From NCBI RefSeq assembly GCF_003966895.1, contig NZ_AP018449.1:2683501-2747500 (forward strand): a stretch of 64,000 bases of DNA, given 5' to 3'. Position numbers and translations under genes: made by a program. Shown piece after piece: positions 31,972 to 59,069 of the stretch. Each line of letters begins with the position of its first letter. Positions within the stretch are counted from its first letter, which is position 1. The DNA is from Methylomusa anaerophila. GTDB lineage: Bacteria; Bacillota; Negativicutes; Sporomusales; Sporomusaceae. The notes beneath the pieces are model-generated. The model ran no database searches and was not told where the DNA came from. It saw only the letters and a program-made list of their open reading frames with translations.

Positions 31972-32222
31972 TAGGTGCCTAATGAAAGGTGTTGACGATA
32001 GATTTCTGCCTAAGTGGGCAGGAGTATTTTTCGGCAGCCAGGAAGGCTAAAAAGAGAAGCCGGTAACAAGCCGGCGCGGTCCCGCCACTGTATCGGGGAG
32101 TAAATCCGCACAGATGTCACTGAAGCATAGCTTTGGGAAGACGCGGATGAGCGAAGAGCCGGAGCCAGGAGAACTGCCTATCTGACAATCGCCGCTTGAC
32201 CTACGAACGATGGGGAAGGAGG
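31972..32222 (+). promoter_or_regulatory. cobalamin riboswitch 1
   Basis: It has the conserved AGGTGCC start (31974), the core GCGGTCCCGCCACTGTATCG and the B12 box AGCCAGGAGAACTGCC (about 32164-32179), ending near ACGATGGGG. The region between the first helix and the GGTAACA-like core is longer than in the other copies, with an extra hairpin (CTGCCTAAGTGGGCAG). A terminator follows at 32273. The downstream unit is a 14-codon ORF and a LuxR-type regulator. Confidence 0.92.
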
Positions 32223-32272
32223 TTACGAATCCTGTCAATAGGCCTTATTCCTATTGGCAGTGTAAGTGTAAC

Positions 32273-32298
32273 GCTCTCTTTTCACAGGGAGCTTTTTT
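32273..32298 (+). terminator. terminator controlled by riboswitch 1
   Basis: GCTCTC / GGGAGC followed by TTTTTT. An alternative stem CCTGTCAATAGG / CCTATTGGCAG upstream may act as antiterminator. Confidence 0.6.
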
Positions 32299-32327
32299 AT
32301 ATCCAAAATATAAGGAAGAAAGACATT

Positions 32328-32372
32328 ATGAAATCAATCTTTCAGACACTTGTTTTTCCCGGCGATTTATAA
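32328..32372 (+). CDS. 14-residue leader peptide or truncated gene start
   Basis: ATG 32328 has AAGGAAG 9 bases upstream and encodes MKSIFQTLVFPGDL before TAA. Its position just after the riboswitch terminator suggests the first codons of a lost B12-regulated gene, or a leader peptide before the LuxR-type gene. Confidence 0.35.
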   Translation: MKSIFQTLVFPGDL

Positions 32373-32400
32373 ACTGTCATCAATATTTAAAAGGCTGAAG

Positions 32401-32943
32401 GTGTTAAAGACGATGCCTCCCGATGTTTTTCGACTATTGCATTCATCTTATCAAGGTATCTGCATTCTAAATTGGAATTTCAAAAAAAAATATCAGAATG
32501 AGAGCGCCAAAAAGATTTTTGCTGAAAGATGTCCTGAGCTTTTTCAACAACTCGAAAAAATTTGCCGGAATTTCAGCGAAATGGTTAATGACGTTAATAA
32601 TCCTTTAATTAGCCATAGCGGGATGCTTCACTTTCTGTCCGGTACCCTTGTCTTTAGTTGTCTGCGGCTTGGGAAAGCAGAGAAAACCTGTTATTATATT
32701 ATCTTCGATTATATTTCCCTGCTGGAGAACGAACTCACCAATGAAATAGCTCTTACACCACGGGAGCGGGAAATTGTGCAAATCATGGCGATGGGCAAGA
32801 CGAACAAAGAAATAAGCAAAATATTGTGCATCGGTCTGGAAACAGTAAAATCGCATATTCGCAATTTATTTGCCAAGACAGGCGCGACTTCCCGGGTGGA
32901 ATTGATTGGCAAGGTGCTTCAATTGCCCCGGCAGGCGCAGTAA
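32401..32943 (+). CDS. LuxR-type transcriptional regulator
   Basis: GTG 32401 and ATG 32413 are both possible starts; an upstream part of the frame has no site. The roughly 180-residue protein has an unrecognised N-terminal sensory part containing cysteines (CPELFQQLEKICRNF; TLVFSCLRLG) and a C-terminal LuxR helix-turn-helix with LTPREREIVQIMAMGKTNKE and ILCIGLETVKSHIRNLFAKT. It lies directly behind riboswitch 1 with only the terminator between, so it should be made when cobalamin is low, and it may pass the signal to genes lacking a riboswitch. The target genes are unknown. Confidence 0.82.
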   Translation: MLKTMPPDVFRLLHSSYQGICILNWNFKKKYQNESAKKIFAERCPELFQQLEKICRNFSEMVNDVNNPLISHSGMLHFLSGTLVFSCLRLGKAEKTCYYIIFDYISLLENELTNEIALTPREREIVQIMAMGKTNKEISKILCIGLETVKSHIRNLFAKTGATSRVELIGKVLQLPRQAQ

Positions 32944-34925: not shown

Positions 34926-34958
34926 GATATACAAGTACTGGTAACTGAATATTTTGAG

Positions 34959-35157
34959 TTAGGTGCCCAGTCGGGCTTAATAGGGAAGACCGGTGCAATA
35001 CCGGCGCGGTCCCGCCACTGTAACGGGGAGCAAGCTTAAGATATGCCACTGAGACCATTGTTTTGGGAAGGTTTAAGCAAGCCATGATCCGGAGCCAGGA
35101 GAACTACCTAGCTGACAATCACCGTTTTTCACCCACGCGGTATGGGGAGGGGATTAC
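34959..35157 (+). promoter_or_regulatory. cobalamin riboswitch 2
   Basis: AGGTGCCC start (34961), TTAATAGGGAAGACCGGTGC, the core GCGGTCCCGCCACTGTAACG and the B12 box AGCCAGGAGAACTACC (one substitution). The end is near GGTATGGGGAGGGG. Two terminators follow. It controls cbiC and a BtuF-like lipoprotein gene. Confidence 0.95.
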
Positions 35158-35333: not shown

Positions 35334-35963
35334 ATGGATTACATTATGGAACCGCAGGCCATCGAACAGCGGAGCATGGAGATCATTGCCGCCTACCTTA
35401 CCGATCTTAACCTGAATGACCAGGCTGCCAGAGTATATTCCCGGATTATCCATGCTGCCGGCGATCCCGATTATGCAAAAAGTATCAGTATCCATCCCCA
35501 GGCTATTGCTGCCGGTATGCAGGCGCTGCAGCAGGGCAGGCCCATTTACTGTGATGTGGAAATGGTACGTACCGGCATTAACAAACGGCGCTTGGCCGAG
35601 TATGGCGGTGAAGCGCATTGCCTGATTGCCGATTCCGGTATTGCCGAACAGGCCAGACAGGCCGGCATTACCCGCGCTATGGCAGCCATACGGGCTTTTG
35701 CCGATAAACTGGACGGCGCCATTCTGGCTGTTGGCAATGCTCCGACCGCCCTGTTTGAAGCCATAAAAATCATGCAGGAGTCCCAGGTCCGTCCGGCGGT
35801 AATTATCAGCGTCCCGGTAGGCTTTGTCGGTGCGGCGGAGTCCAAGGAATACCTGGCTGCGCATTCACCGGTACCTTATATCACTGTCCACGGCAACAAG
35901 GGAGGAAGCGCGATTGCTGCGTCGGCCATAAACGCGCTGCTGTATATGCTGCCAGGCAAGTAA
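35334..35963 (+). CDS. cbiC: precorrin-8X / cobalt-precorrin-8 methylmutase
   Basis: This 209-residue protein contains the CbiC/CobH signature: RSMEIIAAYL, RVYSRIIHAAGDPDYAKSIS with the catalytic histidine H40, GRPIYCDVEMVRTGIN, ILAVGNAPTALFEAI and PVGFVGAAESKEYL. It moves the methyl group from C-11 to C-12 to give (cobalt-)precorrin-8 to cobyrinic acid in cobalamin biosynthesis. AAGGAGG precedes ATG 35334. It is regulated by riboswitch 2 and followed 7 bases later by a BtuF-like gene. In an anaerobe the cobalt-containing substrate is expected. Confidence 0.93.
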   Translation: MDYIMEPQAIEQRSMEIIAAYLTDLNLNDQAARVYSRIIHAAGDPDYAKSISIHPQAIAAGMQALQQGRPIYCDVEMVRTGINKRRLAEYGGEAHCLIADSGIAEQARQAGITRAMAAIRAFADKLDGAILAVGNAPTALFEAIKIMQESQVRPAVIISVPVGFVGAAESKEYLAAHSPVPYITVHGNKGGSAIAASAINALLYMLPGK

Positions 35964-35970
35964 ATATGTA

Positions 35971-36939
35971 ATGATAGTAAGAATAGTAAGAATAGTAAGA
36001 ATGGTTATTGTGATATGTATGGCGCTGTGGATAAGCGGCTGTACTACCAATCAGACGGCTCAGATGGGCAAAGGCGCGGCAAGTTATGGGCTGGCAGATA
36101 ACAAAGGTCAGATTATGGTCTTAAAGGACAAACCGCAGCGGATTGTCTCGCTGGGGATTGCTATGGATGAAATTTTGGTTGACCTGGTTCCCGCCCAGCG
36201 CATTGCCGCGTTAACCTACCTGGCGGATGATGGCAAAATTTCCAATATTACTGCCCAGGCCAAAAAAATACCCCGCAGGGCAACTGCCGACGCGGAGGCG
36301 ATAATCAAACTGCAGCCTGACCTGGTGCTTGTTCCCGACTGGCAGCCGGTGGAACTGATTCAGATCTTGCGGGATACCGGTATCCCTGTGTATTTGTATA
36401 AGGCACCGAAAACAGTTAGAGAAATCAGGGATGTAATCGCGGAAATTGCCGGCGTTGTCGGCGAAGCTCAAGCCGGAGCGCAGATCATTGCTGAAATGGA
36501 GACTAAGCTTGCCGCTATTCGCGCCAAAGTGAGTCAGATACCTGGCGGCCGGCAGCCGGTGGTTGTCCGTTTTAGTACTATGGGGGTAACCGGCGGCAAG
36601 GACAGTCTGTTCGATGATATCTGCCGGCATGCCGGCGTCCAAAACGGGGCGGCCTTGGCCGGCCTGCCGACGAACGGTCAGTTGTCCAAGGAGCAAATTG
36701 TTAAGGTGAATCCGGATGTGTTTCTCATTCCGGTTGCCGACCGCAGTGGCCGGAATGCGGATATGCGGCAGTTCAAGGCCGACCTGCTGGCCGACCAGGC
36801 GCTGCAAGCCGTGACGGCGATTCAGCAGCGCAGGCTGGTTACGGTGCCGGATGCTTACATGTACTGCTCCTCGCAGTATATCGTAAACGGCGTATACGCT
36901 ATAGCCGCGGCTGCGTATCCGCAGTATTTCGGACAGTAG
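35971..36939 (+). CDS. BtuF-like corrinoid-binding lipoprotein 1
   Basis: This 322-residue lipoprotein opens with an unusual n-region (MIVRIVRIVRMVIVICMALW) encoded by a 9-base tandem repeat, then the lipobox LWISGC. The mature part is a type III periplasmic binding protein: KPQRIVSLGIAMDEILVDLV, the helical backbone, and C-terminal PVADRSGRNADMRQFKADLL and YMYCSSQYIVNGVYAI. It resembles the two paralogues at 49022 and 51265. It would bind a corrinoid or related macrocycle between the membranes. No BtuCD transporter is encoded in the window. Internal ATG 36001 is a weaker alternative start. Confidence 0.85.
   Translation: MIVRIVRIVRMVIVICMALWISGCTTNQTAQMGKGAASYGLADNKGQIMVLKDKPQRIVSLGIAMDEILVDLVPAQRIAALTYLADDGKISNITAQAKKIPRRATADAEAIIKLQPDLVLVPDWQPVELIQILRDTGIPVYLYKAPKTVREIRDVIAEIAGVVGEAQAGAQIIAEMETKLAAIRAKVSQIPGGRQPVVVRFSTMGVTGGKDSLFDDICRHAGVQNGAALAGLPTNGQLSKEQIVKVNPDVFLIPVADRSGRNADMRQFKADLLADQALQAVTAIQQRRLVTVPDAYMYCSSQYIVNGVYAIAAAAYPQYFGQ
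35974..36000 (+). repeat. 9-bp tandem repeat in the signal-peptide region
   Basis: ATAGTAAGA is repeated three times in frame and encodes IVR IVR IVR. Gain or loss of a unit would change the signal peptide by three residues without a frameshift. Confidence 0.7.
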
Positions 36940-37129
36940 CAGCTGGAAGCGGGGGCCGGTCTTCTTTTGCTTCCTTTTGCAGGTACATAGAGCGGGTTAG
37001 GCGAGAATCCTGCCATACAGATTCCCGTAGCCTGGAAGCACCGGGAGCCATCCTTACATAGCTGTTAGCTATCCGTCAGGCCGTGTATCAAATTATTTCA
37101 GCCGAGATTTACAATTTCATAGATATTGA
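36940..37129. other. upstream block duplicated before riboswitch 4
   Basis: From about 37031 to the riboswitch this sequence (for example CATCCTTACATAGCTG and GTCAGGCCGTGTATC) is also present at about 41945-42043. No gene is seen. The shared block probably carries the promoter. Confidence 0.6.
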
Positions 37130-37322
37130 GACAGGTGCCCTACGGGGCTTAATAGGGAAGACCGGTGCAATACCGGCGCGGTCCCGCCACTGTAACGGGG
37201 AGCAAACCCAAGGAATGCCACTGGGGCGAAAGTCCTGGGAAGGTTTGGGCAAGTGTTGATCCGGAGCCAGGAGAACTGCCTGACTGAAAATCACCGTTTA
37301 CTCACGAGCGATGAGGAGGGGA
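37130..37322 (+). promoter_or_regulatory. cobalamin riboswitch 3
   Basis: AGGTGCCC start (37133), TTAATAGGGAAGACCGGTGC, core GCGGTCCCGCCACTGTAACG and B12 box AGCCAGGAGAACTGCC, ending near CGATGAGGAGGGG. A terminator follows at 37370. It controls the 37566-41894 operon and is highly similar, with its upstream flank, to riboswitch 4. Confidence 0.95.
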
Positions 37323-37369
37323 TTTGACCAAAAGAATGTTTTTTAACATTTGCTTACTTCCAGTCTTCC

Positions 37370-37402
37370 AGTCTTCTGCACTCTGTTCAGAAGACTTTTC
37401 TA
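37370..37402 (+). terminator. riboswitch 3 terminator
   Basis: AGTCTTCTG (37370-37378) pairs with CAGAAGACT (37388-37396), followed by TTTTC. Confidence 0.65.
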
Positions 37403-37460
37403 TTTGCCCGGATTCAGCTTGATAATAAGTCAAGACTCCCGCCTCTACAGGCGGCGTTAA

Positions 37461-37488
37461 TTCAGGTGGAGCAGACTCTCCACCTGAA
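37461..37488 (+). repeat. strong leader hairpin before the riboswitch-3 operon
   Basis: TTCAGGTGGAG pairs perfectly with CTCCACCTGAA around a 6-base loop, followed by a second small stem GTTTCAG / CTGAAAC. It lies between terminator and first gene and has no T-run; it may stabilise the mRNA. Confidence 0.55.
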
Positions 37489-37565
37489 TCCCCGTGTTTC
37501 AGTGATGCTGAAACGAGTTCACTGTAGACGAGGCCCAGGCCATGCGGAGGAGAGGAGGATTATAT

Positions 37566-38462
37566 TTGCCGCATAACAAAATACTGCGTACCCGGAATAT
37601 ACTGGCGGGTATTTTTTTGGCATTCCTGCTGCTTGTTCATAGCGCGGAATGCAGCGGCTTTGAAGACAGACCGGCATTTCTCTGGCTGGAGTATGGTACG
37701 AAACAGGATGAGCGGGACGGATCGGCAACGCAGACTATTTATATTACAAGCAGTGCCGAATCACTAACGCTTGCTGAGCTTACCGATTTAACCGCTTTTT
37801 ACCATGACGGCCGCCAAACCGGTGAAAAACAGTATTACCGGATTCCCGTCGAGCAGCAGGATGGCCGCTACTTCCTGCGGGTTAATACCTCTTCCCGGTT
37901 TTTTTATCACGTGGTTGTCACAGGTAGCCGCCAGGGAGAGCATTTTACGGCCCAGACGACTTTTCCCCTGTATGCGGACGGGATGGATAAGCGGATAGAG
38001 CAAGGCCGGGCGATGGCGAAAAATACCAAAGTATTTCCCGCCATTGAACTGGACTTATCCGGCAATCCGTACAGGACGCTGATGACAGGCCAAACGTTCC
38101 GGTTTCTGTATAAGCCGGTTTATTCGCCCGGTCATGCTGTCCGGGAAATGCAGATCCTTGATTTGCGCAACAAGACTTCGGAAAAACTTTTGCCTGATGC
38201 CGCCGGTATATTTTCTTTTACCCCGCCTCACGATAAACGCCTGGATAACGGCGGCTACAATGCGTATAAGGAGACCATCGTCTATGCGGAAGAAGCTGTC
38301 GGCAATGAAGTGTACAAAACCTCAATGAATTTTTTACTGCGCCGCTCATACTTGGCTCACAACAACCTTACCCATGGCCTGCTTCTTTTCTTCTTGGCCA
38401 TGGCAGTCAGTATCACCGTTGTATTATTTCGCAGAAGGAGCTTCCGGTATCATGGTAGATAA
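37566..38462 (+). CDS. membrane-anchored periplasmic protein of the riboswitch-3 operon
   Basis: TTG 37566 is chosen because GGAGG lies 6 bases upstream; an earlier frame from 37542 overlaps that site. The 298-residue protein has a signal peptide (NILAGIFLAFLLLVHSAECS), a periplasmic domain of about 230 residues rich in strands and aromatic residues (PAFLWLEYGTKQDE; FYHVVVTGSRQGEHFTAQTT), then one C-terminal transmembrane helix (LTHGLLLFFLAMAVSITVVL) and a basic cytoplasmic tail RRRSFRYHGR. I do not recognise the family. It overlaps the polyferredoxin gene by 11 bases, suggesting that the two form a membrane complex. Confidence 0.7.
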   Translation: MPHNKILRTRNILAGIFLAFLLLVHSAECSGFEDRPAFLWLEYGTKQDERDGSATQTIYITSSAESLTLAELTDLTAFYHDGRQTGEKQYYRIPVEQQDGRYFLRVNTSSRFFYHVVVTGSRQGEHFTAQTTFPLYADGMDKRIEQGRAMAKNTKVFPAIELDLSGNPYRTLMTGQTFRFLYKPVYSPGHAVREMQILDLRNKTSEKLLPDAAGIFSFTPPHDKRLDNGGYNAYKETIVYAEEAVGNEVYKTSMNFLLRRSYLAHNNLTHGLLLFFLAMAVSITVVLFRRRSFRYHGR

Positions 38463-39399
38463 CTTACGGTTACTAATTCAAAATTTCATGTTTGTTTTCT
38501 GGACCTACGGCGGCCGGGCCGGAGTAAACCTGGGCTACTCGGTTCCCTGTTTTTCCTGTCCTTATGTTCCTGGCTGCGCCGGGTATTGTTATCTCATGGC
38601 CTTGCAGGGGCAATGGAGCCTAGCCTTTTTATTTCCCGAACTGCTTTCCTATAAAAGCTTTAAGGTAGTACTGTATTTTCTTCTCTTTGTTCTGTTGGCA
38701 ATTCTGCTGTCAAAACTATGGTGCGGCTGGATATGCCCGTTTGGCACCCTGCAGGATTGGCTGTCCCAGCTCAGAAAGAAGCTGGGAATCCGGGAAACGG
38801 AGTTTTCCTGGAAAACCCGGGAGCGCCTGAAGCCGGTTAAATATGTACTGCTGGCCCTGCTGATTATTACGCCGTTCTTAATGGCATTTGGGGGGCTGCA
38901 CCGGGATTTTTACCTGCTGTTCTGTCAAATTTGCCCGGCCAAGCCCATTATGCCGCTGTTTGCCGGGCAAACCCGCAATCTCGCCCTGGACTATACGAAC
39001 ACGATCACGCTGACCTTCTCGGTTTTATCCCTCACCATTGCCGCCGTCACGCTGGTCGGGAGTTTTTTCAAGGACCGGTTTTTTTGCCTGTTCTGTCCGA
39101 TGCTCCCCTTGATTCAGATGACCCGCAAACTTAGCTTTATCCGCTTTGAAAAAAAAGGTCATACCTGCTTAGGCTGTGGCAACTGCCAAAGAATGTGTCC
39201 GGTGGATATCCGGGACGTGCATCTGGAAACCAGTGAAAAAAACGTAATGAGCGAAGACTGTATGCTTTGCCTGCGCTGTATCGAATCTTGTCCGGAAGAC
39301 AACACATTAACTGTAAAATTCTTTAATCACGATATATTTTCGTCGTCACGCAGGTATGTTGCCGAAAACTATCAACAGAGGAAATCAGCCAATGGATAA
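38452..39399 (+). CDS. NapH/CcoG-type membrane polyferredoxin
   Basis: ATG 38452 overlaps the previous gene; AGAAGGAG lies 11 bases upstream. The 315-residue protein has four to five membrane helices and the NapH-type motif CGWICPFGTLQDW with a second C-x3-CP (FCLFCPMLPL), then two cytoplasmic [4Fe-4S] motifs: CLGCGNCQRMCPVDI and CMLCLRCIESCPEDN. Additional cysteines near the N-terminus (CFSCPYVPGCAGYC) are unusual and could hold another cluster or heme. It is expected to pass electrons through or from the membrane to a cytoplasmic acceptor, and the ATP-driven reductase encoded next is the obvious candidate. Confidence 0.85.
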   Translation: MVDNLRLLIQNFMFVFWTYGGRAGVNLGYSVPCFSCPYVPGCAGYCYLMALQGQWSLAFLFPELLSYKSFKVVLYFLLFVLLAILLSKLWCGWICPFGTLQDWLSQLRKKLGIRETEFSWKTRERLKPVKYVLLALLIITPFLMAFGGLHRDFYLLFCQICPAKPIMPLFAGQTRNLALDYTNTITLTFSVLSLTIAAVTLVGSFFKDRFFCLFCPMLPLIQMTRKLSFIRFEKKGHTCLGCGNCQRMCPVDIRDVHLETSEKNVMSEDCMLCLRCIESCPEDNTLTVKFFNHDIFSSSRRYVAENYQQRKSANG

Positions 39400-40630
39400 C
39401 ATGGTGTCGAAAGAGGAAGAGCGGCGTCTAAGACAGCGGGCAAAGGCGTATGAAAAAACCTGTGAAGAATATGAGCAGGAAATTGACGCATTAAAGGCAA
39501 GAGCCGACTATGTTGCCGAGTTCGACTATTTTCTGGATTTATTAACCTTGCCGCTGCAGCCTTCCCGGCTCAGAGAAAAGGTTGGCCGGCCGCTCATTGG
39601 CCTGTTTTGCATCCAGGCACCATGGGAACTGTTTCATGCTTTCGGGGTTCATCCGGTGAAACTGTGCAGCGGCTCCTATACGGCGCAGCGGCTTTCCGCA
39701 GCTTATCTGCCGGTGCTGATGTGCCCCATGCTCAAATCCTATATTGGCAGTATGGACTTTGCCGGCGCAGCGGCTGGTTATGACGCCACAATTGTCCCGA
39801 CGACCTGCGACTGGGTTGTGAAAATGCCGGAAATCGCCAGAGAGAAGATCGGACCCCTGCATTATCTGGAGCTTCCCCATGTCAAACAGAATGAAAAGGG
39901 CCAAAAGCGCTGGCTTGAGGAAATCTATGCCTTAAAACAGTTTCTAGCGGAAAAAACAGGAGTTACACTAAAAAGACAAGGCCTCCTCTATTCGATGAAT
40001 GCCTTTATGCATGTCTGGAAGCTGTTTCAGGCACTCATTGATTTAAAAAGACGCAATATCCTTCCCGGCATATGGTTTTTTTGCATTGCCAATACGTTTA
40101 TGCTGGACGATCTTGATCGCTGGGCCGAGCAACTGGCGCTGGTGATACAACGCTTTCAGACGGAAGCTCCGCGCCAGAATCCGTACAAGGTCTTTCTTGC
40201 CGGGTCGCCGGTGATCTTTCCGAATCTGAAGCTGCTGCAGCTTATTGAACAGGCGGGCATGACCGTCTGCGCCGACGACCTCTGTTCTTCCGAACGGATA
40301 CTTCCCGGCGCAACGGTGTATGATGACCCGTCGGAGCACGGCCTGTTAAGAGCGCTGGCCGAAAGATACCATAAGGCCTGTATCTGCCCGACCTTCGCGG
40401 ATAATGAACGGCGCGTCAATAATATCCTGAAGATAACCGGGGACCACCAGATGAAAGGAATTGTCTTTCATGTGTTAAAAGGCTGTCATCCCTACGATAT
40501 TGAGAGTTTTTCCATCGAAAAGAAAGTAAAGGACAGTGGACGCAAGTTTCTCAAAATTGAAACTGATTATGTAAAAGAAGACAGCCAGAACATTTTGACC
40601 CGTCTGGAAGCTTTTAAACAAACTTTATAG
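39392..40630 (+). CDS. 2-hydroxyacyl-CoA dehydratase (HgdB)/DCCP-like reductase component
   Basis: ATG 39392 overlaps the polyferredoxin stop by 8 bases. The 412-residue protein belongs to the HgdB/FldBC/BcrBC family of iron-sulfur proteins activated by an ATP-dependent archerase. Cysteines that could bind clusters are at about 73, 92, 111 (VLMCPMLKS), 139 (PTTCDW), 231, 293, 298 (VCADDLCSSERI), 330, 332 and 365, more than a single [4Fe-4S] cluster needs. Double-cubane cluster proteins, which reduce small molecules, belong to the same family. The true substrate is unknown. Its position under a cobalamin riboswitch with a polyferredoxin suggests a corrinoid-linked reduction rather than amino-acid fermentation. 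Confidence 0.82.
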   Translation: MDNMVSKEEERRLRQRAKAYEKTCEEYEQEIDALKARADYVAEFDYFLDLLTLPLQPSRLREKVGRPLIGLFCIQAPWELFHAFGVHPVKLCSGSYTAQRLSAAYLPVLMCPMLKSYIGSMDFAGAAAGYDATIVPTTCDWVVKMPEIAREKIGPLHYLELPHVKQNEKGQKRWLEEIYALKQFLAEKTGVTLKRQGLLYSMNAFMHVWKLFQALIDLKRRNILPGIWFFCIANTFMLDDLDRWAEQLALVIQRFQTEAPRQNPYKVFLAGSPVIFPNLKLLQLIEQAGMTVCADDLCSSERILPGATVYDDPSEHGLLRALAERYHKACICPTFADNERRVNNILKITGDHQMKGIVFHVLKGCHPYDIESFSIEKKVKDSGRKFLKIETDYVKEDSQNILTRLEAFKQTL

Positions 40631-40644
40631 GAAGGTTGATCGCT

Positions 40645-41415
40645 ATGAGCTATAAAATTGGCATTGATCTCGGCAGCACGGCCATCAAGGCAGTGATCGT
40701 CAAAGACAGCGAGCTTATCTGGAAAAAAGCGGTGCCGACCGCACCCGGCCAGGAGACCCTGGCCCGCCGGTTGCTGGACGAGGGTTTGGCTGAGATTGAG
40801 GTAAGCGAACAGGATAGTGAGGGTATCTCGGTCACCGGCTACGGCAAAAATCTGATTGCCGGCGCGCATACCGTTATTGACGAGGTTTCCGCCAATGCCT
40901 GGGGCGTTTACCTGTTAAGCGGCAGGAAAGCGCGCACGGTTATCAATATCGGCGGCCAGGATATAAAAATTATTCGGCTGGCCGAGGACGGCAAATTAAG
41001 CGACTTTAAGATGAATGATAAATGCGCGGCCGGGACCGGACGTTTTTTTGAAATGGCCGGCCGTATCCTGGACACGCCCATTCATGATTTTGCGGCCTTA
41101 GCGGACAAGGCCGATGCTTCCGTAAGCCTCAACAGTACCTGTGTGGTATTCGCGGAAAGCGAGATCGTATCCCTCATCGCCAAAGGAACGAAAAAGGAAA
41201 ACATCATCCGCGGGCTGCATGAATCAATCGCCAGACGCATAGCCGGCATGATGGGAAATCAGGATTTCGAAGATGAATTGTATCTTGACGGCGGATCGGC
41301 CAATAACGGCGGGCTGGCGGCGGCAATGGAAGATGAACTTTTCCGGGATGTATATATTCTTCCCCATCCCCAGTTCACGGTCGCTTATGGCGCAGCCTGT
41401 TCGCTGCGAAGATAA
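40645..41415 (+). CDS. archerase: HgdC/BcrD-family ATP-dependent activator
   Basis: ATG 40645 follows ATAGGAAGG. The 256-residue ASKHA ATPase shows GIDLGSTAIKAVIVKD (phosphate 1), INIGGQDIKI, LDGGSANNGGL and the two cysteines that bind the bridging [4Fe-4S] cluster of the homodimer: NDKCAAGTGRF (C127) and NSTCVVFAESE (C166), at the same numbering as in A. fermentans HgdC. It drives electrons at very low potential into its partner, here the HgdB-like protein encoded 14 bases upstream. Confidence 0.92.
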   Translation: MSYKIGIDLGSTAIKAVIVKDSELIWKKAVPTAPGQETLARRLLDEGLAEIEVSEQDSEGISVTGYGKNLIAGAHTVIDEVSANAWGVYLLSGRKARTVINIGGQDIKIIRLAEDGKLSDFKMNDKCAAGTGRFFEMAGRILDTPIHDFAALADKADASVSLNSTCVVFAESEIVSLIAKGTKKENIIRGLHESIARRIAGMMGNQDFEDELYLDGGSANNGGLAAAMEDELFRDVYILPHPQFTVAYGAACSLRR

Positions 41416-41471
41416 GACAGACTACTAGGCCATGGGTTGACGAAAATGAAGAGAGAAAGCGGGAGGTTAAA

Positions 41472-41894
41472 ATGAAAAAAAAAGGTATATGCCTGGGCTT
41501 ACTACTGATGTTTTTGCTGGCAATCGGGTGCATGGCGCAGACGGCAGCGGCAGACAGCCAGAGTTGTGCCAATGTAATTGCAGAAAAAATGCTAACAGGT
41601 CTGAAGGAAGACAACTACGCAAAATTCTCGGAGGACTTTGACCAGCAAATGAGCAATAGCTTGCCGGCAGCGGAGTTTGCGAAAATAAGCCGGGAGATCA
41701 AAGGGAAAATCGGCGACTATATTGCCAAAGAATTTGTCAGCAGTGAGCAGAAGGAGCAGTACAGCATTTTTACTTATAAAGCGAAGTTTTCCCAAGAAGT
41801 TACTGATGTTGTTGTTCGAATTGTTCTAACGGAAGCTGACAGTAAATTCCTTGTCTCCGGTTTTTGGTTGGATTCCCCCAATTTACGCCAATAG
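41472..41894 (+). CDS. DUF3887-like lipoprotein
   Basis: ATG 41472 follows GGGAGG. The 140-residue product has a lipoprotein signal (KKKGICLGLLLMFLLAIGC) and a DUF3887-like domain of about 100 residues (KMLTGLKEDNYAKFSEDFDQ; YIAKEFVSSEQKEQYSIFTY; FLVSGFWLDSP). These small domains have a cystatin/NTF2-like fold in predictions and unknown function. It is the last gene of the riboswitch-3 operon, and its periplasmic location puts it beside the periplasmic domain of the first gene. Confidence 0.7.
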   Translation: MKKKGICLGLLLMFLLAIGCMAQTAAADSQSCANVIAEKMLTGLKEDNYAKFSEDFDQQMSNSLPAAEFAKISREIKGKIGDYIAKEFVSSEQKEQYSIFTYKAKFSQEVTDVVVRIVLTEADSKFLVSGFWLDSPNLRQ

Positions 41895-42042
41895 CGGTAT
41901 GTTGACTAACTAATTCACGGCATTACCCGGCAGCGTAACCCTTCCCTGGAAGCACGGGAGTCATCCTTACATAGCTGTCAGCTATTCGTCAGGCCGTGTA
42001 TCGAATTATTCCAGCCGAGATCTACAATTTCATAAGTATTGA

Positions 42043-42238
42043 GACAGGTGCCCTGCAAGGGCTTAATAGGGAAGAACGGTGTAATACCGGCGCGGTCCCG
42101 CCACTGTAATGGGGAGCAAAGCCAAGATATGCCACTGAGACGAACGTCTTGGGAAGGTTTGGCCGAGCCATGCTCCAGAGCCAGGAGAACGGCCTGTCTG
42201 TCAGTCACCGTTTTACCCACGAGCGATGGGGAGGGGAT
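42043..42238 (+). promoter_or_regulatory. cobalamin riboswitch 4
   Basis: AGGTGCCC start (42046), TTAATAGGGAAGAACGGTG (one change in a normally conserved helix), core GCGGTCCCGCCACTGTAATG, and B12 box AGCCAGGAGAACGGCC (a substitution in the box). It ends near GCGATGGGGAGGGG and is followed by a terminator. It controls the receptor, amidase-like, CobN and BtuF-like genes. Confidence 0.93.
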
Positions 42239-42305: not shown

Positions 42306-42433
42306 GTTGTCGGCGGAGCCTGCATGGGGCTGCGCGGTGCCTGCCATATGGCCGGAAGGCTGCGGAAGCAATATTCTGAAATTCTTTGGATTACTATGGG
42401 GATTTGAATGTGGATTTGAGGGGGACAACGGTA

Positions 42434-44392
42434 ATGAAGCAGGCAAGGTTAAGGTTGACAAACAAAAGAAAAGCCATGTTGTGCGCCATGGTGAGCAGCG
42501 CACTGGTGCTGGGCATGACAGGGATTTCCTATGGAGAAGGGGAGAAACAGCAGGATTATTCGTTTGATCAGGTGGTTGTTACGGCCACGAAAACACCGGT
42601 TAAAGAGTTTGAGGCTAAGGCTAACATCAGCGTTGTTACCAGAGAAGAAATTGAAAAGAACCATTATGCGGATGTCAGTGAAGCCTTGCGGCATGTACAG
42701 GGTGTCACAATTTTGAATTATAGCGCCAGCGGCGAAAACTACAGTTCCAACGGCTTATACATCAACGGGGCCGCTAATGTGGTCTATTTGATTGACGGCG
42801 TGCGGGCCAATACCAATGGCAGTACATACAGTAAGGCTCCCATCGGGGAGTTTGTCAATATGGATGCGATTGAGCGCATTGAAGTACTGAAAGGATCCGC
42901 TTCCACCTTGTATGGTTCTGATGCGCAAGGCGGCGTCATTAATATCATTACCCGGAAGCCCAAAGACGGAGAATCCATCAACAAACTTGGCGTTGAATAC
43001 GGCAGCTACGGCAAAGAGCAGTATAATTTCACCCACAGCGGGAGCAAGGATGGTGTTTACTGGAGTATTGACGCCCAGAAACGGCTTATGGGTGATTTTA
43101 AAGACGGCCGCGGCAACCCGGTCATTAATGATATTAACTCTATGGCCCTGAATTTCAAAATTGGCAAAGATTTTGATGAAAACTCCCATCTTACTTTACG
43201 TTATCAAACCTACCGGGCGGATTACCAGCGGCCTGACGGCGGCTCGTTTACTACTGTCAGAGACTATGGAGAAAAAGATAATAACAGCTTCAGTCTCATC
43301 TATGACCGAAAGATTTCCGAAAAGTTAACGAATACATTTTCCTTGTTTAGAAATCAGAATCGCCTCAGGGACAACTGCAGGGTACCGACTATGTGGCTCA
43401 TGGATTTAGAAACCGTCGGCTTTAGTGATCAGCTAACCTATAAAGCCGGCGGACACACGCTGACCGGCGGCGTGGATTACTACCAAGACAAAGTCAAAGA
43501 TTATTACTCGGCTTACTACGCCGGGTCGGTGTTCAATGTCGAGACCTATCAGGATAAAGTCCTCTCCAACCGGGCGGTGTTTATCCAGGACGAATGGGAA
43601 CTCAGCAAACGCTGGAACCTGACTTGGGGGATTCGCTTCGACCATCATTCCGAATACGGCAATCACAGCACGCCCAGCCTTGTGCTGGGGTATAACCAGG
43701 ATGATAGAACCAATTATTACGTCAGCTACAAAGAATTTTTTGTTGCTCCCAACCAGTATCAGATTTTTTCGCAGATTGGCAGCAAGGATTTGCAGCCTGA
43801 AGAGGGAAACACTGTGGAATTTGGTGTAAATCACAAGTTTGATGATACCTTTGCCGGCAGCTTCAACATTTACAAACAGAAGGCTGAGAATATAATTGGC
43901 TATCGTTATCTTGCGAGCGCGCCCTACTACCAATATTACAATACCGGGAAAGAGGATTCCCGCGGCTGGGGCGTCCGGCTGACAAAAGATTTTACGAAAA
44001 ATTTCCGGGTCAATGTGGGTTATACCTACATTTATATCGATCCCGCCTCTGCTACGGCCAATGCGAACCGAAACGGGTTCCTGCCCCGCGGGACCTGGAA
44101 TATCGGCTTGGATTATGAACGGGATAAATTCAACACAGTACTCAATGGCCGGGGGATCGTCGACCGGGAAGGCGGCTATGGCAAGGCTACAGTCGCCGAA
44201 TTTAAGAACTTCTGGGTTTGGGACTTAGCTGTTAATTACAAGGCGTCGGATACGGTCAGAGTTTTTGCGAAAGTTAATAATATTTTCGACAAATTCTATG
44301 CCGAACAGGGGACAGACGGGAATCCCAGCCAAACTTACTGGTACTCTGCCCCGGGACGCAATTATCAAATTGGCATGCAATACAGTTTCTAA
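42434..44392 (+). CDS. TonB-dependent outer-membrane receptor 1
   Basis: ATG 42434 is chosen because it precedes a signal peptide (AMLCAMVSSALVLGMTGISY) and GAGGGGG lies 9 bases upstream. The 652-residue protein has a TonB-box-like stretch near QDYSFDQVVVTATK, a plug (VTREEIEKNHYADVSEALRH; GSASTLYGSDAQGGVINIIT) and a 22-strand barrel that ends in the aromatic-terminal strand YQIGMQYSF. It imports large ligands across the outer membrane using TonB energy. Being under a cobalamin riboswitch, a corrinoid is the first guess (BtuB-like), but another tetrapyrrole is possible. Confidence 0.92.
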   Translation: MKQARLRLTNKRKAMLCAMVSSALVLGMTGISYGEGEKQQDYSFDQVVVTATKTPVKEFEAKANISVVTREEIEKNHYADVSEALRHVQGVTILNYSASGENYSSNGLYINGAANVVYLIDGVRANTNGSTYSKAPIGEFVNMDAIERIEVLKGSASTLYGSDAQGGVINIITRKPKDGESINKLGVEYGSYGKEQYNFTHSGSKDGVYWSIDAQKRLMGDFKDGRGNPVINDINSMALNFKIGKDFDENSHLTLRYQTYRADYQRPDGGSFTTVRDYGEKDNNSFSLIYDRKISEKLTNTFSLFRNQNRLRDNCRVPTMWLMDLETVGFSDQLTYKAGGHTLTGGVDYYQDKVKDYYSAYYAGSVFNVETYQDKVLSNRAVFIQDEWELSKRWNLTWGIRFDHHSEYGNHSTPSLVLGYNQDDRTNYYVSYKEFFVAPNQYQIFSQIGSKDLQPEEGNTVEFGVNHKFDDTFAGSFNIYKQKAENIIGYRYLASAPYYQYYNTGKEDSRGWGVRLTKDFTKNFRVNVGYTYIYIDPASATANANRNGFLPRGTWNIGLDYERDKFNTVLNGRGIVDREGGYGKATVAEFKNFWVWDLAVNYKASDTVRVFAKVNNIFDKFYAEQGTDGNPSQTYWYSAPGRNYQIGMQYSF

Positions 44393-45315: not shown

Positions 45316-48300
45316 ATGGGACGCATCCTATTTTTGACCAATATGGAACGCCAGCAGCTGATGCTGGAAAAGGCCCGGGAAAGTGTGGCCCAGGCGGGGC
45401 TGCAGGCTGAAACCAGGACAGTGCTCTTAAGTGACGCGGTTCCCTGGGGGGAAGAGTGGCAGAAGACTTTTGCCGCCTGCAACATTGTTATTTTTACCTG
45501 GATGGGTAGCGGGCTGGATACCGCATTTTTGCGGAAGTCAGCCGAGTTTTTGCGCAAGCGCCAGCTTACGCACGTCATGCTGATCTCCGACCCCGATGCC
45601 GGCGAATTGTCCTGCGGTGTTTCCCCGGCAGCAAAAGAGACGCTGCAGCAGTATCTGGCGTTTGGCGGCATGGAAAACTTTCGCCAGTTCTGGCGCTGGC
45701 TGGCGCAAACCTATTGCCGGGAGGACACGCCGGTGCGGAACCCGGAGCCGCTTCTCTGGCAGGGCATTTACCATCCCCGGGCCCCGCGCCCCTTTACCGA
45801 CCTGACAGAATACCGGGCGGCTTTCTGCCGGCCGGACCGGCCCACTATTGGTCTCCTGTTCTATCGCGATGAGTGGGTTTGGGGCGACCTGGCCTATCAG
45901 GCGGCCTTGATCGAGGAGATTGAGGGGCAGGGCATGAACGCGCTGGCGGTATTTTGCCAGTATGTCGGCAATCCCGAACTGCAGGCGCCGGGGCTTAAGG
46001 AAACGCTGGCAAGCTTTTTCTGCCCTGACGGCCAAGCGGAGATCGATGTTATCCTGAACACCTTTAAGTTTTCGATGTTATCCATGAAGGCGATTGCGCA
46101 GGAAGCGCTCAATCAGTTGGGCGTGCCCATCCTGCAAGCGTATACGTTATACCGGCCGCGACAGGAATGGCAGGAGTCCAGCGAAGGTATGACGGCTATG
46201 GAGATGGCTGTCAGCATTGCCATGCCCGAGTTTGACGGCGCCATTCACGGCGTGCCGGTCGCCGGACGGGAATATCAGGCGGACGGCAATGCTGTCTGTC
46301 TTCCCCTGGCGGAACGCATCACCATGATGGTGCGCAAAGCCGGCAAATGGGCCGGACTGCGCCGCAAACCCAATGCGGCCAAGAAGATCGGCATCATCTT
46401 TCATAATTATCCGCCCACGAACTCGAATATCGGCAGCGCGGCCGGCCTGGATTCGCCGGAAAGCATCCGCCTGCTGCTGGCCAGCATGCGCGGGGCCGGC
46501 TACAAAATTGACCGCATTCCGGCAGACAGCCAGTCCTTTATGAATGAGTTAATCGCCCATGCCACCAATGACCGGCGGTATCTGACGGAAAGACAGATTG
46601 AAGAAGCGGACGGGCAATTAACGGCTGCTCAGTACCAGACCTGGTTTGAGGCTGCAGAGCCCGGGACACAGGAACAACTGATCAAAGACTGGGGCCATCC
46701 TCCCGGCGATGTATTTCACTACGACGGCAAGCTTTTAGTCCCGGGTATGCTCAACGGCAATATTTACATCACGGTCCAGCCGCCCCGCGGCTTTGGCGAA
46801 GATCCTGCCAAACTGTATCATTCGCCCGATTGCGCCCCGACCCATCACTATCTGGGCTATTACTACTGGCTGCGCGATGTCTGGCAGGCGGATGCCGTGG
46901 TGCATGTCGGCACCCATGGCTCGCTGGAATGGCTGCCCGGCAAAGGCGCCGGCCTGTCACGCGAGTGCTATCCCGATTTGGCCATCGACGACTTGCCCAA
47001 TATCTACCCGTACTGGATCACTGTGGTCGGTGAAGGCGTCCAGGCCAAACGGCGCGGCGCAGCCTGCCTGATCAGCTATCTGACACCGCCCATGAGCCAT
47101 GCCGGTACTTATGATGAACTGGCCGAACTGGAGAATCTGCTGGATGAATACTGCCATTTCCGGCAGACGCAGCCTGATAAGCTGGCGACTGTCACGGAAC
47201 TGATCCGGGCCAAAGCGGCTGCCGCCAATCTCGGGGAGGATGTGCCGGAAGACCCGGCGCAGCCCTTCGATGATTTTGTCGGCCGGCTGCACGTGTATGT
47301 CACCGATATTAAAAATATGCAAATCAGGACAGGTCTGCATACGCTAGGCCGCCCGCCCGCCGGCGATACCCTGATCGAGTATCTGCTGGCCCTTACGCGG
47401 GTGGACAATGGCGACGTCCCTTCCCTGGCGCAGACGCTGGCCGCCGCATACGGCTGCGACTATTATCAGCTCCTGGAGCAAAGCGGCCAACTGCTGCCGG
47501 ACGGGACCAAGACCGGCGGCGCTTTGCTGGATGATATCCGGGAACGCTGCCGGGATATTCTCAGCCTGCTGGCTGAGCGGGAGTTTGAGCCGGATCAGGC
47601 GGCGGCGATCCTTACGTTTCCCTGGGCGGCTACGCTGCCCGCAGGGTTAAAAGAACGTCTTTTGACCGCGGCCGTTTATGTCTGCCGGACGATAGCTCCC
47701 AGTCTGGCGAAAACGACCCAGGAAATCACCAATCTGTTAGCGGCCCTGGCAGGCAGGTATGTCGAGCCGGGACCGGGCGGAGCGCCAACCAGCGGCGGCG
47801 CCGATATCCTGCCCACCGGACGCAATTTCTACGGTGTTGATCCCCGGACGCTGCCCACGCCTGCGGCCTGGGAAATCGGCAGGACCATGGGGGATGACGT
47901 CATTGCGTCTTATATCGCCGAAGAGGGGCGGTATCCGGAAAATATCGGTATTGTTCTGTGGGCGACCAGCAATATGCGCAGTCATGGCCAGTGCATCGCG
48001 CAGTTTTTATACCTGCTGGGCGTTAAGCCGGTCTGGCAAAAAGGCAGCATGCGGGTGGTGGAGTTGGAAGTCATCCCGGCCGCCGAGCTAAAACGTCCGC
48101 GCATTGATGTCACCGGCCGGATCAGCGGCCTGTTTCGCGACAGCATGCCTATGGCCGCGGCCTGGCTGGATAAGGCTGTTGCCTTGGTGTCCAGGCTGGA
48201 GGAGAGTCCGGACATAAACTATGTGCGGAAACACATTACCGCGGACGCCAAAGCCATGGAAGAAGAGGGTCTGGATAGTGCAACCGCCTGGGAGCAGGCC

Positions 48301-49029
48301 AGCTGGCGCATTTTCGGTGATCCGCCCGGAACCTACGGCGCCGGCGTCGGGGCGGTGCTGGAGGCCAAAAACTGGGAGACCATTGATGATCTGGCCAAGG
48401 TTTATGTCCGTTGGGGCGGGCACGCTTACAGCGGCAAGGGTCAGGGCGCTTATGTGCCGGAACTGTTCAGCCGCCGCATGGGCAGTCTGGACATTACCAT
48501 TCAAAATCAGGATAACCGGGAAATCAGCATGCTGAATTCCGACGATTATAACGCCTACCACGGCGGCATGATTGCGGCCGTCCGCAGTATCAAAGGCGAA
48601 GCGCCCCGTTCCTACTGCGGTGACAGCTCGGACCGGAAAAAGGTTATCATGCGCAGCCTGCAGGCGGAACTCAAGCGCCTGTTCCGGGGTGAAGCCATCA
48701 ATCCCAAATTCATTGAAGGCATGCAAGAACATGGCTATAAAGGTGCGGCCGATCTGTCCAATTACGTGGCCCATAGCTACCAATGGGATGCCACCAGCGA
48801 TGTTATGGAAGACTGGATGTATGAAAAGTATGCGGAGAAATACGCTCTTGACGCCGCCATGCAGGCCTGGATGAAAGAAGTCAATCCCTGGGCGCTGCGG
48901 CGGATTGCGGAAACCCTGCTGGAAGCGGCTCAGCGCGGCTTGTGGGATGCCCGGGAAGACACGAAACGGGAACTGGAACAACTGTATCTTGCCATCGAAG
49001 GGGAACTGGAGGAGCGCAGCGATGCCTAA
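45316..49029 (+). CDS. cobN: CobN-like cobalt/metal chelatase large subunit (complete)
   Basis: This 1237-residue protein is the CobN/BchH-type tetrapyrrole-binding chelatase subunit. It has the N-terminal family domain, VVHVGTHGSLEWLPGKGAGL at about residue 528 (metal/porphyrin-site histidines) and the C-terminal MgChelatase part DILPTGRNFYGVDPRTLPTP, SLDITIQNQDNREISMLNSD and NPWALRRIAETLLEAAQRGL. It needs ChlI/ChlD-type ATPases, present at 57030 and 59070. Known CobN inserts cobalt late in aerobic cobalamin synthesis, whereas the anaerobic route does not need it. GAGGCAGGAG precedes the start, and the BtuF-like gene overlaps it by 8 bases. Confidence 0.93.
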   Translation: MGRILFLTNMERQQLMLEKARESVAQAGLQAETRTVLLSDAVPWGEEWQKTFAACNIVIFTWMGSGLDTAFLRKSAEFLRKRQLTHVMLISDPDAGELSCGVSPAAKETLQQYLAFGGMENFRQFWRWLAQTYCREDTPVRNPEPLLWQGIYHPRAPRPFTDLTEYRAAFCRPDRPTIGLLFYRDEWVWGDLAYQAALIEEIEGQGMNALAVFCQYVGNPELQAPGLKETLASFFCPDGQAEIDVILNTFKFSMLSMKAIAQEALNQLGVPILQAYTLYRPRQEWQESSEGMTAMEMAVSIAMPEFDGAIHGVPVAGREYQADGNAVCLPLAERITMMVRKAGKWAGLRRKPNAAKKIGIIFHNYPPTNSNIGSAAGLDSPESIRLLLASMRGAGYKIDRIPADSQSFMNELIAHATNDRRYLTERQIEEADGQLTAAQYQTWFEAAEPGTQEQLIKDWGHPPGDVFHYDGKLLVPGMLNGNIYITVQPPRGFGEDPAKLYHSPDCAPTHHYLGYYYWLRDVWQADAVVHVGTHGSLEWLPGKGAGLSRECYPDLAIDDLPNIYPYWITVVGEGVQAKRRGAACLISYLTPPMSHAGTYDELAELENLLDEYCHFRQTQPDKLATVTELIRAKAAAANLGEDVPEDPAQPFDDFVGRLHVYVTDIKNMQIRTGLHTLGRPPAGDTLIEYLLALTRVDNGDVPSLAQTLAAAYGCDYYQLLEQSGQLLPDGTKTGGALLDDIRERCRDILSLLAEREFEPDQAAAILTFPWAATLPAGLKERLLTAAVYVCRTIAPSLAKTTQEITNLLAALAGRYVEPGPGGAPTSGGADILPTGRNFYGVDPRTLPTPAAWEIGRTMGDDVIASYIAEEGRYPENIGIVLWATSNMRSHGQCIAQFLYLLGVKPVWQKGSMRVVELEVIPAAELKRPRIDVTGRISGLFRDSMPMAAAWLDKAVALVSRLEESPDINYVRKHITADAKAMEEEGLDSATAWEQASWRIFGDPPGTYGAGVGAVLEAKNWETIDDLAKVYVRWGGHAYSGKGQGAYVPELFSRRMGSLDITIQNQDNREISMLNSDDYNAYHGGMIAAVRSIKGEAPRSYCGDSSDRKKVIMRSLQAELKRLFRGEAINPKFIEGMQEHGYKGAADLSNYVAHSYQWDATSDVMEDWMYEKYAEKYALDAAMQAWMKEVNPWALRRIAETLLEAAQRGLWDAREDTKRELEQLYLAIEGELEERSDA

Positions 49030-52307: not shown

Positions 52308-52369
52308 ATTGATTAAGCAGGATTTATTATGCTGATTGCTTTTGGTTTTTAATTGAATAGTCTTGAGAA

Positions 52370-52558
52370 ATAGGTGCCGCAAGGCTTAATAGGGAAATCG
52401 GTGCAGCGCCGATGCGGTCCCGCCACTGTAATGGGGAGCAAGTCCACAAAACGTCACTGGGAAATATTCCTGGGAAGGCGTGGAGAAGCGATGAACCAAA
52501 GCCAGGAGAACTGCCTATTTTCTATTTACCAAGAATCCTACGAGCGATGGGATGGTAA
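52370..52558 (+). promoter_or_regulatory. cobalamin riboswitch 5
   Basis: AGGTGCCG start (52372), TTAATAGGGAAATCGGTGCA, core GCGGTCCCGCCACTGTAATG and B12 box AGCCAGGAGAACTGCC, ending near GCGATGGGATGG. A strong terminator follows at 52624. It controls the split-CobN operon. Confidence 0.95.
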
Positions 52559-52692: not shown

Positions 52693-53004
52693 ATGAAAAA
52701 AAGATTATTCAGGGAAAAAATGGTCGTAGCAATGGTTTCTGTATTCGCGTTTTCCGTCTTTGGTCCGCAAACACCGGATGCGGCAGCCAGTTTCTTTCCG
52801 GCCACCACCTACTGGGTATGGGATATTGGTCTGAACTATCAGGCCGGCAAAGCCATTAAAGCCTTTGTGAAAGTGAATAATATCTTTGACAAATTCTACG
52901 CGGAGCACTCTAACGCGCGTTATAACTGGAGCTCAACTCCGGTTGAACAATGGTGGAGTGCTCCCGGCAGAAATATTCGCGTCGGCATGGAATATATTTT
53001 CTAA
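52693..53004 (+). pseudogene. mini TonB receptor: signal peptide fused to the last strands
   Basis: The 103-codon open frame encodes a signal peptide (REKMVVAMVSVFAFSVF...) followed at once by TYWVWDIGLNYQAGKAIKAF, FVKVNNIFDKFYAE and the terminal strand RNIRVGMEYIF. These match the last 60 or so residues of the full receptors at 42434 and 60207 (for example KVNNIFDKFYAEQG). Plug and about 20 strands are missing, with the frame kept, so it arose by internal deletion in frame. GGGGGA lies about 14 bases upstream. It could be a relic or a small exported protein. Confidence 0.75.
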
Positions 53005-53110
53005 CTAAGCGATTGAGAGAATGTGACTGCCACCATTTAGTTTCAGTGGCGGCGGCCTTTGACTGTTTAGCGTATACTTTATATTTTTATAAAACGGGGA
53101 GGATGTGTGC

Positions 53111-55450: not shown

Positions 55451-55475
55451 CAGAGTAATAAAAGGAGGGAAAATT

Positions 55476-56987: not shown

Positions 56988-57029
56988 ATATGAGCCGGCT
57001 GTAAACCGGCCGGGAATTGAGGCGATAAT

Positions 57030-59036: not shown

Positions 59037-59069
59037 CGATATTTTTGAAGGAGGCGCACTATAGAATAT

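Follow-up and report, generated by a model that had tools for sequence, protein, structure and literature searches.

An operon behind a cobalamin riboswitch

At positions 37116–37297 of the window (the whole 64,000-nt stretch of Methylomusa anaerophila DNA analysed here), a cobalamin riboswitch aptamer on the plus strand matches RF00174 with 121.6 bits over model positions 1–189, against a gathering score of 31.5 bits, and has the highest score of the 15 in the genome. A probable intrinsic terminator, read from the sequence, follows at 37370–37404 (+): a 9-bp stem (AGTCTTCTG/CAGAAGACT) and then TTTCTATT. The same stem is seen in the folded leader, the fold z-score of which is only −1.9; a pattern-based terminator scan gave no match in the leader, because the 9-nt loop exceeds the loop limit of the scan. 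This terminator is likely the OFF platform of the riboswitch. Other cobalamin riboswitches, from S. ovata and V. parvula, have proved to work when placed in a reporter system in B. subtilis (PMC9600662).

Five open reading frames lie 3′ of the riboswitch, all on the plus strand, with overlaps of 11 nt and 8 nt among them. The first four, encoding ORF1, a polyferredoxin, a reductase resembling the double-cubane protein DCCP and an HgdC-type activator, form a tightly packed module. A preceding riboswitch (34944–35125, +; RF00174) is followed by Pfam matches to CbiC (35334–35963, +) and a BtuF-like binding protein (35971–36939, +). The next cobalamin riboswitch (42029–42211, +; RF00174, 103.9 bits) heads a neighbouring operon with a TonB-dependent receptor (42386–44392, +; PF00593 and PF07715) and a CobN-type chelatase (45316–49029, +; PF02514; TIGR02257 at 976 bits, cut-off 822). 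Further away in the window are a CobN/ChlI/ChlD gene set (53105–60110) and a gene for an AcsV-like activator (23360–25147).

ORF1 (37542–38462, +) is predicted from alignments, hydropathy and an AlphaFold model (pLDDT 75) to be a membrane-anchored periplasmic protein, with an N-terminal signal or anchor, two beta-sandwich domains and a C-terminal transmembrane segment with an Arg-rich end. No Pfam family scored above its cut-off, and a fold search returned weak, generic Ig/FNIII-like matches with low TM-scores, so we assign ORF1 no function; nor is a corrinoid or redox site recognisable in it. Its identification as a DUF4198 (metal-uptake) protein was dropped, as Pfam gives no support.

The membrane polyferredoxin (38452–39399, +), recognised from Pfam and NCBIfam matches, cysteine conservation and hydropathy, has 18 conserved cysteines, a Fer4_5 domain and a C-terminal 2[4Fe-4S] domain. 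It resembles NapH-type polyferredoxins in being a multi-helix membrane protein with this C-terminal domain and CX3CP-like motifs, but it has extra conserved cysteines, predicted to lie on the periplasmic side, and scores 76.4 bits against the NapH model TIGR02163, under the cut-off of 213.

The fifth gene (41472–41894, +; PF13026) encodes a DUF3887 protein with a signal peptide and lipobox, in keeping with the lipoprotein that the initial annotation placed at the end of the operon, except that the stand-alone gene falls outside the conserved module. Judged by sequence (48.6% identity over 109 aa, E = 2e-37), it is homologous to the C-terminal domain of the Sporomusa CbiZ–DUF3887 fusion, here that of S. 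ovata; the DUF3887 half is the only part of this fusion found in the window.

A predicted double-cubane reductase and its activator

The reductase (39392–40630, +) belongs to PF06050 (HGD-D; 235.9 bits), matches 6eno with E = 2e-41 and scores 235 bits against the DCCP equivalog NF040772, under the cut-off of 350. Alignment maps all six [8Fe-9S] ligand cysteines onto it, as C73, C111, C139, C298, C332 and C365 (counted from M1), which align with the BzdN cluster ligands C36/73/100/263/293/327 (PMC11971306); in the same alignment HadC lacks two of the six. It is thus a predicted [8Fe-9S] double-cubane protein, in which a clade-specific additional cysteine, C330, creates a CxC motif. In the tree it lies outside the canonical DCCP clade, within a sister clade (support 97/94) whose members are all of the polyferredoxin-linked type (26/26) and which is undescribed in the literature searched. 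Grouping with the 2-hydroxyacyl-CoA dehydratases would have spoken against the initial annotation; the reductase instead groups with DCCP, apart from HadC and BzdN, the placement of these two being subject to long-branch caution. Of the earlier label ‘HgdB/DCCP-like’, the DCCP half therefore holds, HgdB being the more distant of the two.

The activator (40645–41415, +) matches PF01869 (BcrAD_BadFG; 175.9 bits), TIGR00241 (237.7 bits, above cut-off) and 1hux (E = 7.6e-51), which assigns it by homology to the HgdC-type family of ATP-driven electron-transfer proteins. Cysteines 127 and 166, said earlier to be as in HgdC, are both present when counted from the ATG at 40645, and are the predicted ligands of the shared [4Fe-4S] cluster.

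Recurrence and linkage to cobamide salvage

The module is found again in members of the Negativicutes, Spirochaetota and Desulfobacterota, and a distribution across three phyla argues that it is not a chance arrangement. At least 12 of its 47 copies (30 genomes) have an upstream cobalamin riboswitch, compared with 0.28 expected (P ~4e-16), a count that is a lower bound because it rests on 150 of 243 riboswitches. Seventeen reductase copies, mostly in two clades, have their own riboswitch or sit in a riboswitch-headed operon, and this label changes 4 times on the tree, compared with 13.6 times in shuffles. Riboswitch-free paralogues coexist with riboswitch copies in the same genomes, and none of 16 canonical DCCP loci has a cobalamin riboswitch. 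Roughly half of the inner-clade copies have neither a riboswitch nor CbiZ nor CobN, so that the core chemistry of the module is perhaps not corrinoid-specific; a spirochaete copy (L014) lacks B12 context. TonB/ExbBD and DUF4198 neighbours are common in the wider clade.

Three irregular gene models were also considered. An in-frame TGA (G353) was rejected as selenocysteine, since it stands in the place of TGG (Trp) rather than of a codon for Cys; an apparent polyferredoxin–reductase fusion (L056) was rejected because the N-terminal half of the ORF is in the wrong frame; and a gene break (L015) was put down to a frameshift in a metagenome assembly.

CbiZ or CobN occurs near 13 of the 17 riboswitch copies and near 0 of 17 riboswitch-free copies (P = 5e-6), with the CbiZ domain (PF01955) in nine of the riboswitch loci and CobN near seven. 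CbiZ, a cobamide amidohydrolase, follows HgdC closely in L010, L015, L057, L131, L133 and L134, and lies ~1.7 kb downstream of it in L058; CobN was not found near L057, L058, L131, L133 or L134, which make up a clade with CbiZ after HgdC. The cassette-linked CbiZ proteins bear signal peptides and some are fused to a BtuF-like domain, which suggests that cobamide salvage may be periplasmic. CbiZ, thus predicted to be periplasmic, is the strongest partner of the module, for which salvage and remodelling is on that account a better fit than metal removal. The loci of S. ovata and KB1 contain CbiK, and an AcsV-like gene adjoins the KB1 cassette. A nitrogenase-like ATP-driven reductase belongs to the same regulon, next to CobO and CbiR-like genes; a nitrogenase-like trio shares riboswitch-controlled islands with the cassette and partly alternates with it among Sporomusaceae.

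These comparisons bear out the co-occurrence with cobalamin riboswitches, TonB receptors and CobN that the initial annotation had proposed to look for, and with CbiZ and BtuF neighbours added, the connection to B12 holds up as a general one, spanning two phyla. They also agree with its view of a single membrane-linked, ATP-driven reductase machine outside amino-acid fermentation, as acyl-CoA enzyme genes are not consistent neighbours of the homologues. At one locus (L049), CoA-transferase-like genes are apparent by eye on the opposite strand.

A possible role in corrinoid reduction

On balance, and if only just, the module probably serves cobamide salvage and remodelling, as an ATP-driven corrinoid reductase repressed by B12. 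Under corrinoid scarcity the riboswitch would permit transcription of the module, and cobamides would enter the periplasm through TonB receptors. The cytoplasmic HgdC-type ATPase would accept an electron from ferredoxin and, driven by ATP hydrolysis, pass it to the DCCP-like reductase, whose [8Fe-9S] cluster would store electrons at very low potential, and the membrane polyferredoxin would link this cytoplasmic reductase to the opposite membrane face. Acting on the corrinoid itself, the system would bring cobalt from Co(III) or Co(II) down to Co(I) with loss of the axial ligands, leaving a Co(I) corrinoid open to CbiZ cleavage and adenosylation. Against this reading, simpler routes to Co(II) reduction are known, through RACo/AcsV or through Co(II) bound to an adenosyltransferase, and the window has a gene for an AcsV-like activator; the lack of a recognisable corrinoid or redox site in ORF1, the inner-clade copies free of riboswitch, CbiZ and CobN, and the L014 copy also count against it. 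In its favour, the reduction of cob(II)alamin takes place at −460 mV for the free and −530 mV for the protein-bound form, and HgdC-class ATPases deliver about −600 mV or lower (PMC6739815). We lean slightly towards electron flow outwards to the periplasm, over the inward flow from quinol proposed earlier. A more specific version, tentative and rather unlikely in its entirety, is a trans-envelope electron gun, in which ATPase and double-cubane reductase would feed electrons more negative than about −600 mV into the polyferredoxin to reduce cobamides held in the periplasm by ORF1 and/or BtuF–CbiZ, for dismantling by periplasmic CbiZ.

The initial annotation had suggested a corrinoid or other tetrapyrrole as substrate; comparative genomics supports the corrinoid link, and metal removal, one of its examples, fits less well than salvage. 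In that scheme, the reductase would reduce the metal of an imported tetrapyrrole and a CobN–ChlID-type chelatase, working in reverse, would extract it to yield cobalt or a free ring. The CobN relative HmuS, which takes iron out of heme in an NADH-dependent reaction (PMC12583661), offers a precedent. The CobN neighbours and the CobN/ChlI/ChlD set in the window also favour metal removal, but CobN was not found near the clade with CbiZ after HgdC. We know of no enzymatic removal of cobalt from corrinoids, and consider the scheme improbable. Somewhat less probable again is reduction of the ring or a side group rather than the metal, as a counterpart of nitrogenase-like CfbCD and BchXYZ: the nitrogenase-like trio in the same islands would suit it, and relatives of the reductase fold such as BzdNO reduce aromatic rings (PMC11971306), but the neighbours are salvage hydrolases rather than ring-tailoring enzymes. 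We also know of no gap in anaerobic cobamide synthesis that would call for such a reduction.

Little more can be said for the view that the module frees a metal such as cobalt, by reduction, from a metallophore chelate imported through TonB and so feeds de novo synthesis, to which we give a low probability. The TonB/ExbBD and DUF4198 neighbours and the CbiK genes of S. ovata and KB1 are consistent with a metallophore, but the linkage to CbiZ would be left unexplained, and electrons below −600 mV should be unnecessary for Co(III) or Fe(III) chelates. Cobalamin riboswitches also regulate B12-independent isozymes such as metE and nrdD (PMC8620254), so the module could be a stand-in switched on when B12 is scarce; with no evident B12-dependent counterpart, and with corrinoid transport and salvage genes as its conserved neighbours, this is very unlikely. 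Least credible is an ordinary 2-hydroxyacyl-CoA dehydratase or benzoyl-CoA reductase, which shares the superfamily PF06050; the HGD-D gene stands alone and groups with DCCP, HadC is two ligand cysteines short, and CoA-ester genes are not its neighbours in the window, nor consistently so elsewhere.

Comparison with known systems

The literature searched, which covered few subscription papers, held no description of the module and no pairing of a cobalamin riboswitch with a 2-hydroxyglutaryl-CoA dehydratase or nitrogenase-like protein; for CbiZ with a polyferredoxin, the one match was a methanogen genome paper. Double-cubane proteins are among the very few 8Fe-cluster enzymes outside the nitrogenase kind, and have a physiological function that is stated as unknown (PMC11971306). 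A large clade tied to cobamide salvage by gene order and riboswitch makes the function of this family directly testable. A corrinoid-reducing module would give the orphan DCCP-like family its first natural job, provide a second ATP-driven way of reducing corrinoids and suggest periplasmic cobamide processing by anaerobes; the electron gun would add ATP-powered super-reduction across a membrane to periplasmic cobamide remodelling.

The known corrinoid-activating ATPases RACo, AcsV and RamA likewise carry out ATP-dependent reduction of Co(II) corrinoids, but the AcsV-like activators include a [2Fe-2S] ferredoxin domain of their own, target protein-bound corrinoid and work without a DCCP-type reductase or polyferredoxin. 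None of the cassette proteins matches the RACo/AcsV models NF040756 and TIGR04270, whose sole hit is the AcsV-like gene that KB1 carries separately. The MCR activation complex (McrC/Mmp7/A2) achieves ATP-driven super-reduction of a metal-tetrapyrrole via 8Fe clusters (PMC12176620), but with unrelated proteins, an L-type cluster and Ni-F430 of methanogens. The (R)-2-hydroxyglutaryl- and 2-hydroxyisocaproyl-CoA dehydratases with HgdC/HadI share the superfamily and the two cluster cysteines of the activator; the module differs in its single reductase subunit, double-cubane ligands and lack of CoA-enzyme context. Class I benzoyl-CoA reductase BzdNO/BzdPQ carries the BzdN [8Fe-9S] cluster on the same six cysteines, but is a heterodimer with a CoA-ester site and is distant in the tree. 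DCCP/DCCP-R (6eno, 7yyl; NF040772) offers a homologous reductase with the six ligand cysteines and an HgdC-type ATP-driven partner gene, from which the module is set apart by its sister clade, the extra CxC cysteine, the linked polyferredoxin and periplasmic protein, and the cobalamin riboswitch.

A riboswitch-led operon in the window

A full cobalamin aptamer on the forward strand (37116–37297, 121.6 bits), the highest-scoring of the 15 cobalamin riboswitches in the 4.78-Mb genome, is followed by a hairpin whose stem is 9 bp long and whose tail is T-rich (37370–37404). Behind this leader lie, in order, ORF1 (37542–38462), a polyferredoxin (38452–39399), an HGD-D protein (39392–40630), a BadF-type ATPase (40645–41415) and a DUF3887 protein (41472–41894), with overlaps of 11 and 8 nt.

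Five complete cobalamin riboswitches lie in the window's final 32 kb, along with a sixth that the window end truncates. Near-identical stretches at 36990–37115 and 41945–42028 (for example, CATCCTTACATAGCTGT.AGCTAT.CGTCAGGCCGTGTATC) precede two riboswitches, which suggests recent duplication of these units. Elsewhere, a cobalamin riboswitch stands before the gene of a LuxR-type regulator (32020–32943), which is unusual as a target, and a truncated TonB-dependent receptor gene leaves a 103-aa fragment (52693–53004) just 3′ of riboswitch 52355–52532. A second CobN (53105–56987) is divided between two ORFs that overlap and differ in frame (model positions 2–653 and 676–1088) and is thus possibly frameshifted. 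The riboswitch that the window end truncates is followed by genes for a TPR protein, CobO and a protein of AP_endonuc_2 type (L067:1862–3476, just beyond the window end) resembling CbiR, the other cobamide-remodelling enzyme besides CbiZ.

A clade beside the double-cubane proteins

The initial annotation called the HGD-D protein HgdB/DCCP-like. Its likeness to the double-cubane cluster protein DCCP held up (6eno, best match, E = 2e-41, followed by HadC and the benzoyl-CoA reductase subunit BzdN), but it falls outside canonical DCCP, scoring 235 bits on the NCBIfam model against a cut-off of 350 and belonging to a sister clade. BzdN binds an [8Fe-9S] cluster through six cysteines (PMC11971306); in our alignment, all six are matched by cysteines in the window protein, and HadC is without two. 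An extra cysteine, C330, two residues N-terminal of ligand C332, occurs in all polyferredoxin-linked copies checked and has no counterpart in the aligned canonical DCCPs and Escherichia coli YjiM. The ATPase is an ordinary activator of the HgdC type and has C127 and C166, as first described.

Polyferredoxin-linked reductases form a single clade in the tree (support 97/94), apparently a new one, with canonical DCCP and YjiM as its sister group and HadC and BzdN placed apart. The operon had initially been set apart from amino-acid fermentation, and its reductase indeed lies outside the 2-hydroxyacyl-CoA dehydratase family. The sole unlabelled clade member (L090) also proved to have a polyferredoxin and an activator. 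Jointly, the cassette genes recur in Sporomusa, another Negativicutes family, Spirochaetota and Desulfobacterota, many of the compared loci being from draft metagenome assemblies. Of 300 Negativicutes genomes, 6 encode members of the clade, as do 27 of the 63 from one Desulfobacterota class, and the number of copies reaches five in one genome.

Association with cobalamin riboswitches

The proposed co-occurrence with cobalamin riboswitches was borne out: at least 12 of 47 copies from 30 genomes have one on the same strand within 5 kb upstream (0.28 expected), a minimum resting on 150 of 243 riboswitches listed, and none of 16 canonical DCCP loci from the same order has one. The riboswitch lies immediately 5′ of ORF1, with no intervening gene, in the window and in L008, L010, L015, L049, L056, L057 and L058; in L007, L009, L011 and L054 it leads what looks like the same operon. 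Genomes that have several copies are often mixed, with one copy behind a riboswitch and others without (for example, G542, G678 and G1339). On the reductase tree, the riboswitch label falls in two main clades, with 4 changes compared with 13.6 in shuffles.

Six distant cassettes (L062–L065, L045 and L046) have no cobalamin riboswitch in the stretches scanned; many lie beside TonB/ExbBD, DUF4198 and DsbD-like proteins, together pointing to another TonB-imported substrate for these copies.

Corrinoid-salvage neighbours

Of 17 riboswitch copies, 13 have CobN or CbiZ nearby, compared with 0 of 17 others (Fisher P = 5e-6, an optimistic value because copies are related and context lengths unequal); all the evidence is sequence-based, and the stretch of context differs in size among loci. 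CbiZ is an amidohydrolase that performs the first step of cobamide remodelling in Rhodobacter (PMC7733943). It lies shortly 3′ of HgdC in six loci (L010, L015, L057, L131, L133 and L134), about 1.7 kb 3′ in L058, and nearby in L009 and L011. All nine cassette-linked CbiZ proteins carry an N-terminal signal-peptide-like segment; the separate CbiZ of the window genome differs. Those from Desulfobacterota also have a BtuF-like domain, complete in L015. The CbiZ proteins that combine signal peptide and BtuF-like domain (L057:6627–8177, L131:3245–4801, L133:9399–10949, L134:5052–6614 and L015:12011–14035) are probably periplasmic corrinoid-binding amidohydrolases. The S. ovata CbiZ carries a fused DUF3887 domain 48.6% identical to the window's DUF3887 protein, so the gene initially annotated as a closing lipoprotein would itself be a sign of CbiZ.

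Electron flow and energetics

ORF1 is predicted to have a membrane anchor at each end and, between them, two beta-sandwich domains on the outer side. Of the 18 cysteines in the polyferredoxin, all are conserved in the inner clade and 16 in the wider clade. Hydropathy and positive charges place C91, C95, C212, C215 and the 2[4Fe-4S] domain on the cytoplasmic side, and C33, C36, C42, C46, C158 and C161 outside. Because cysteines are predicted on both faces and CbiZ is predicted to be periplasmic, we favour an outward flow, in which electrons would pass through the polyferredoxin from cytoplasm to periplasm. Wider-clade cassettes are often paired with a DsbD-like protein, which likewise carries reducing equivalents outward and so hints weakly at the same direction.

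A trio of nitrogenase-like proteins, one NifH-like and two component-1-like, is encoded under the same cobalamin riboswitches in members of the Sporomusaceae and of a related family (L009:12349–15740, L103:4229–7620, L105:7953–11335, L106:7559–10950 and L107:5929–9308), near CobO, CbiK, CbiR-like and BtuCD genes. Trio and cassette occur together in G034 and S. ovata, the cassette without the trio in the window genome and KB1, and the trio without the cassette in G079, G111 and G115. That two unrelated ATP-driven reductases share one regulon suggests a shared requirement of corrinoid salvage for electrons of very low potential.

The midpoints of free cob(II)alamin (−460 mV) and protein-bound corrinoid (−530 mV) lie below that of ferredoxin, and in enzymes of the HgdC-like ATPase class the potential of electrons from the donor falls to about −600 or −800 mV (PMC6739815). 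On these values, an ATP-driven double-cubane reductase would be energetically able to give Co(I) from most cobamides.
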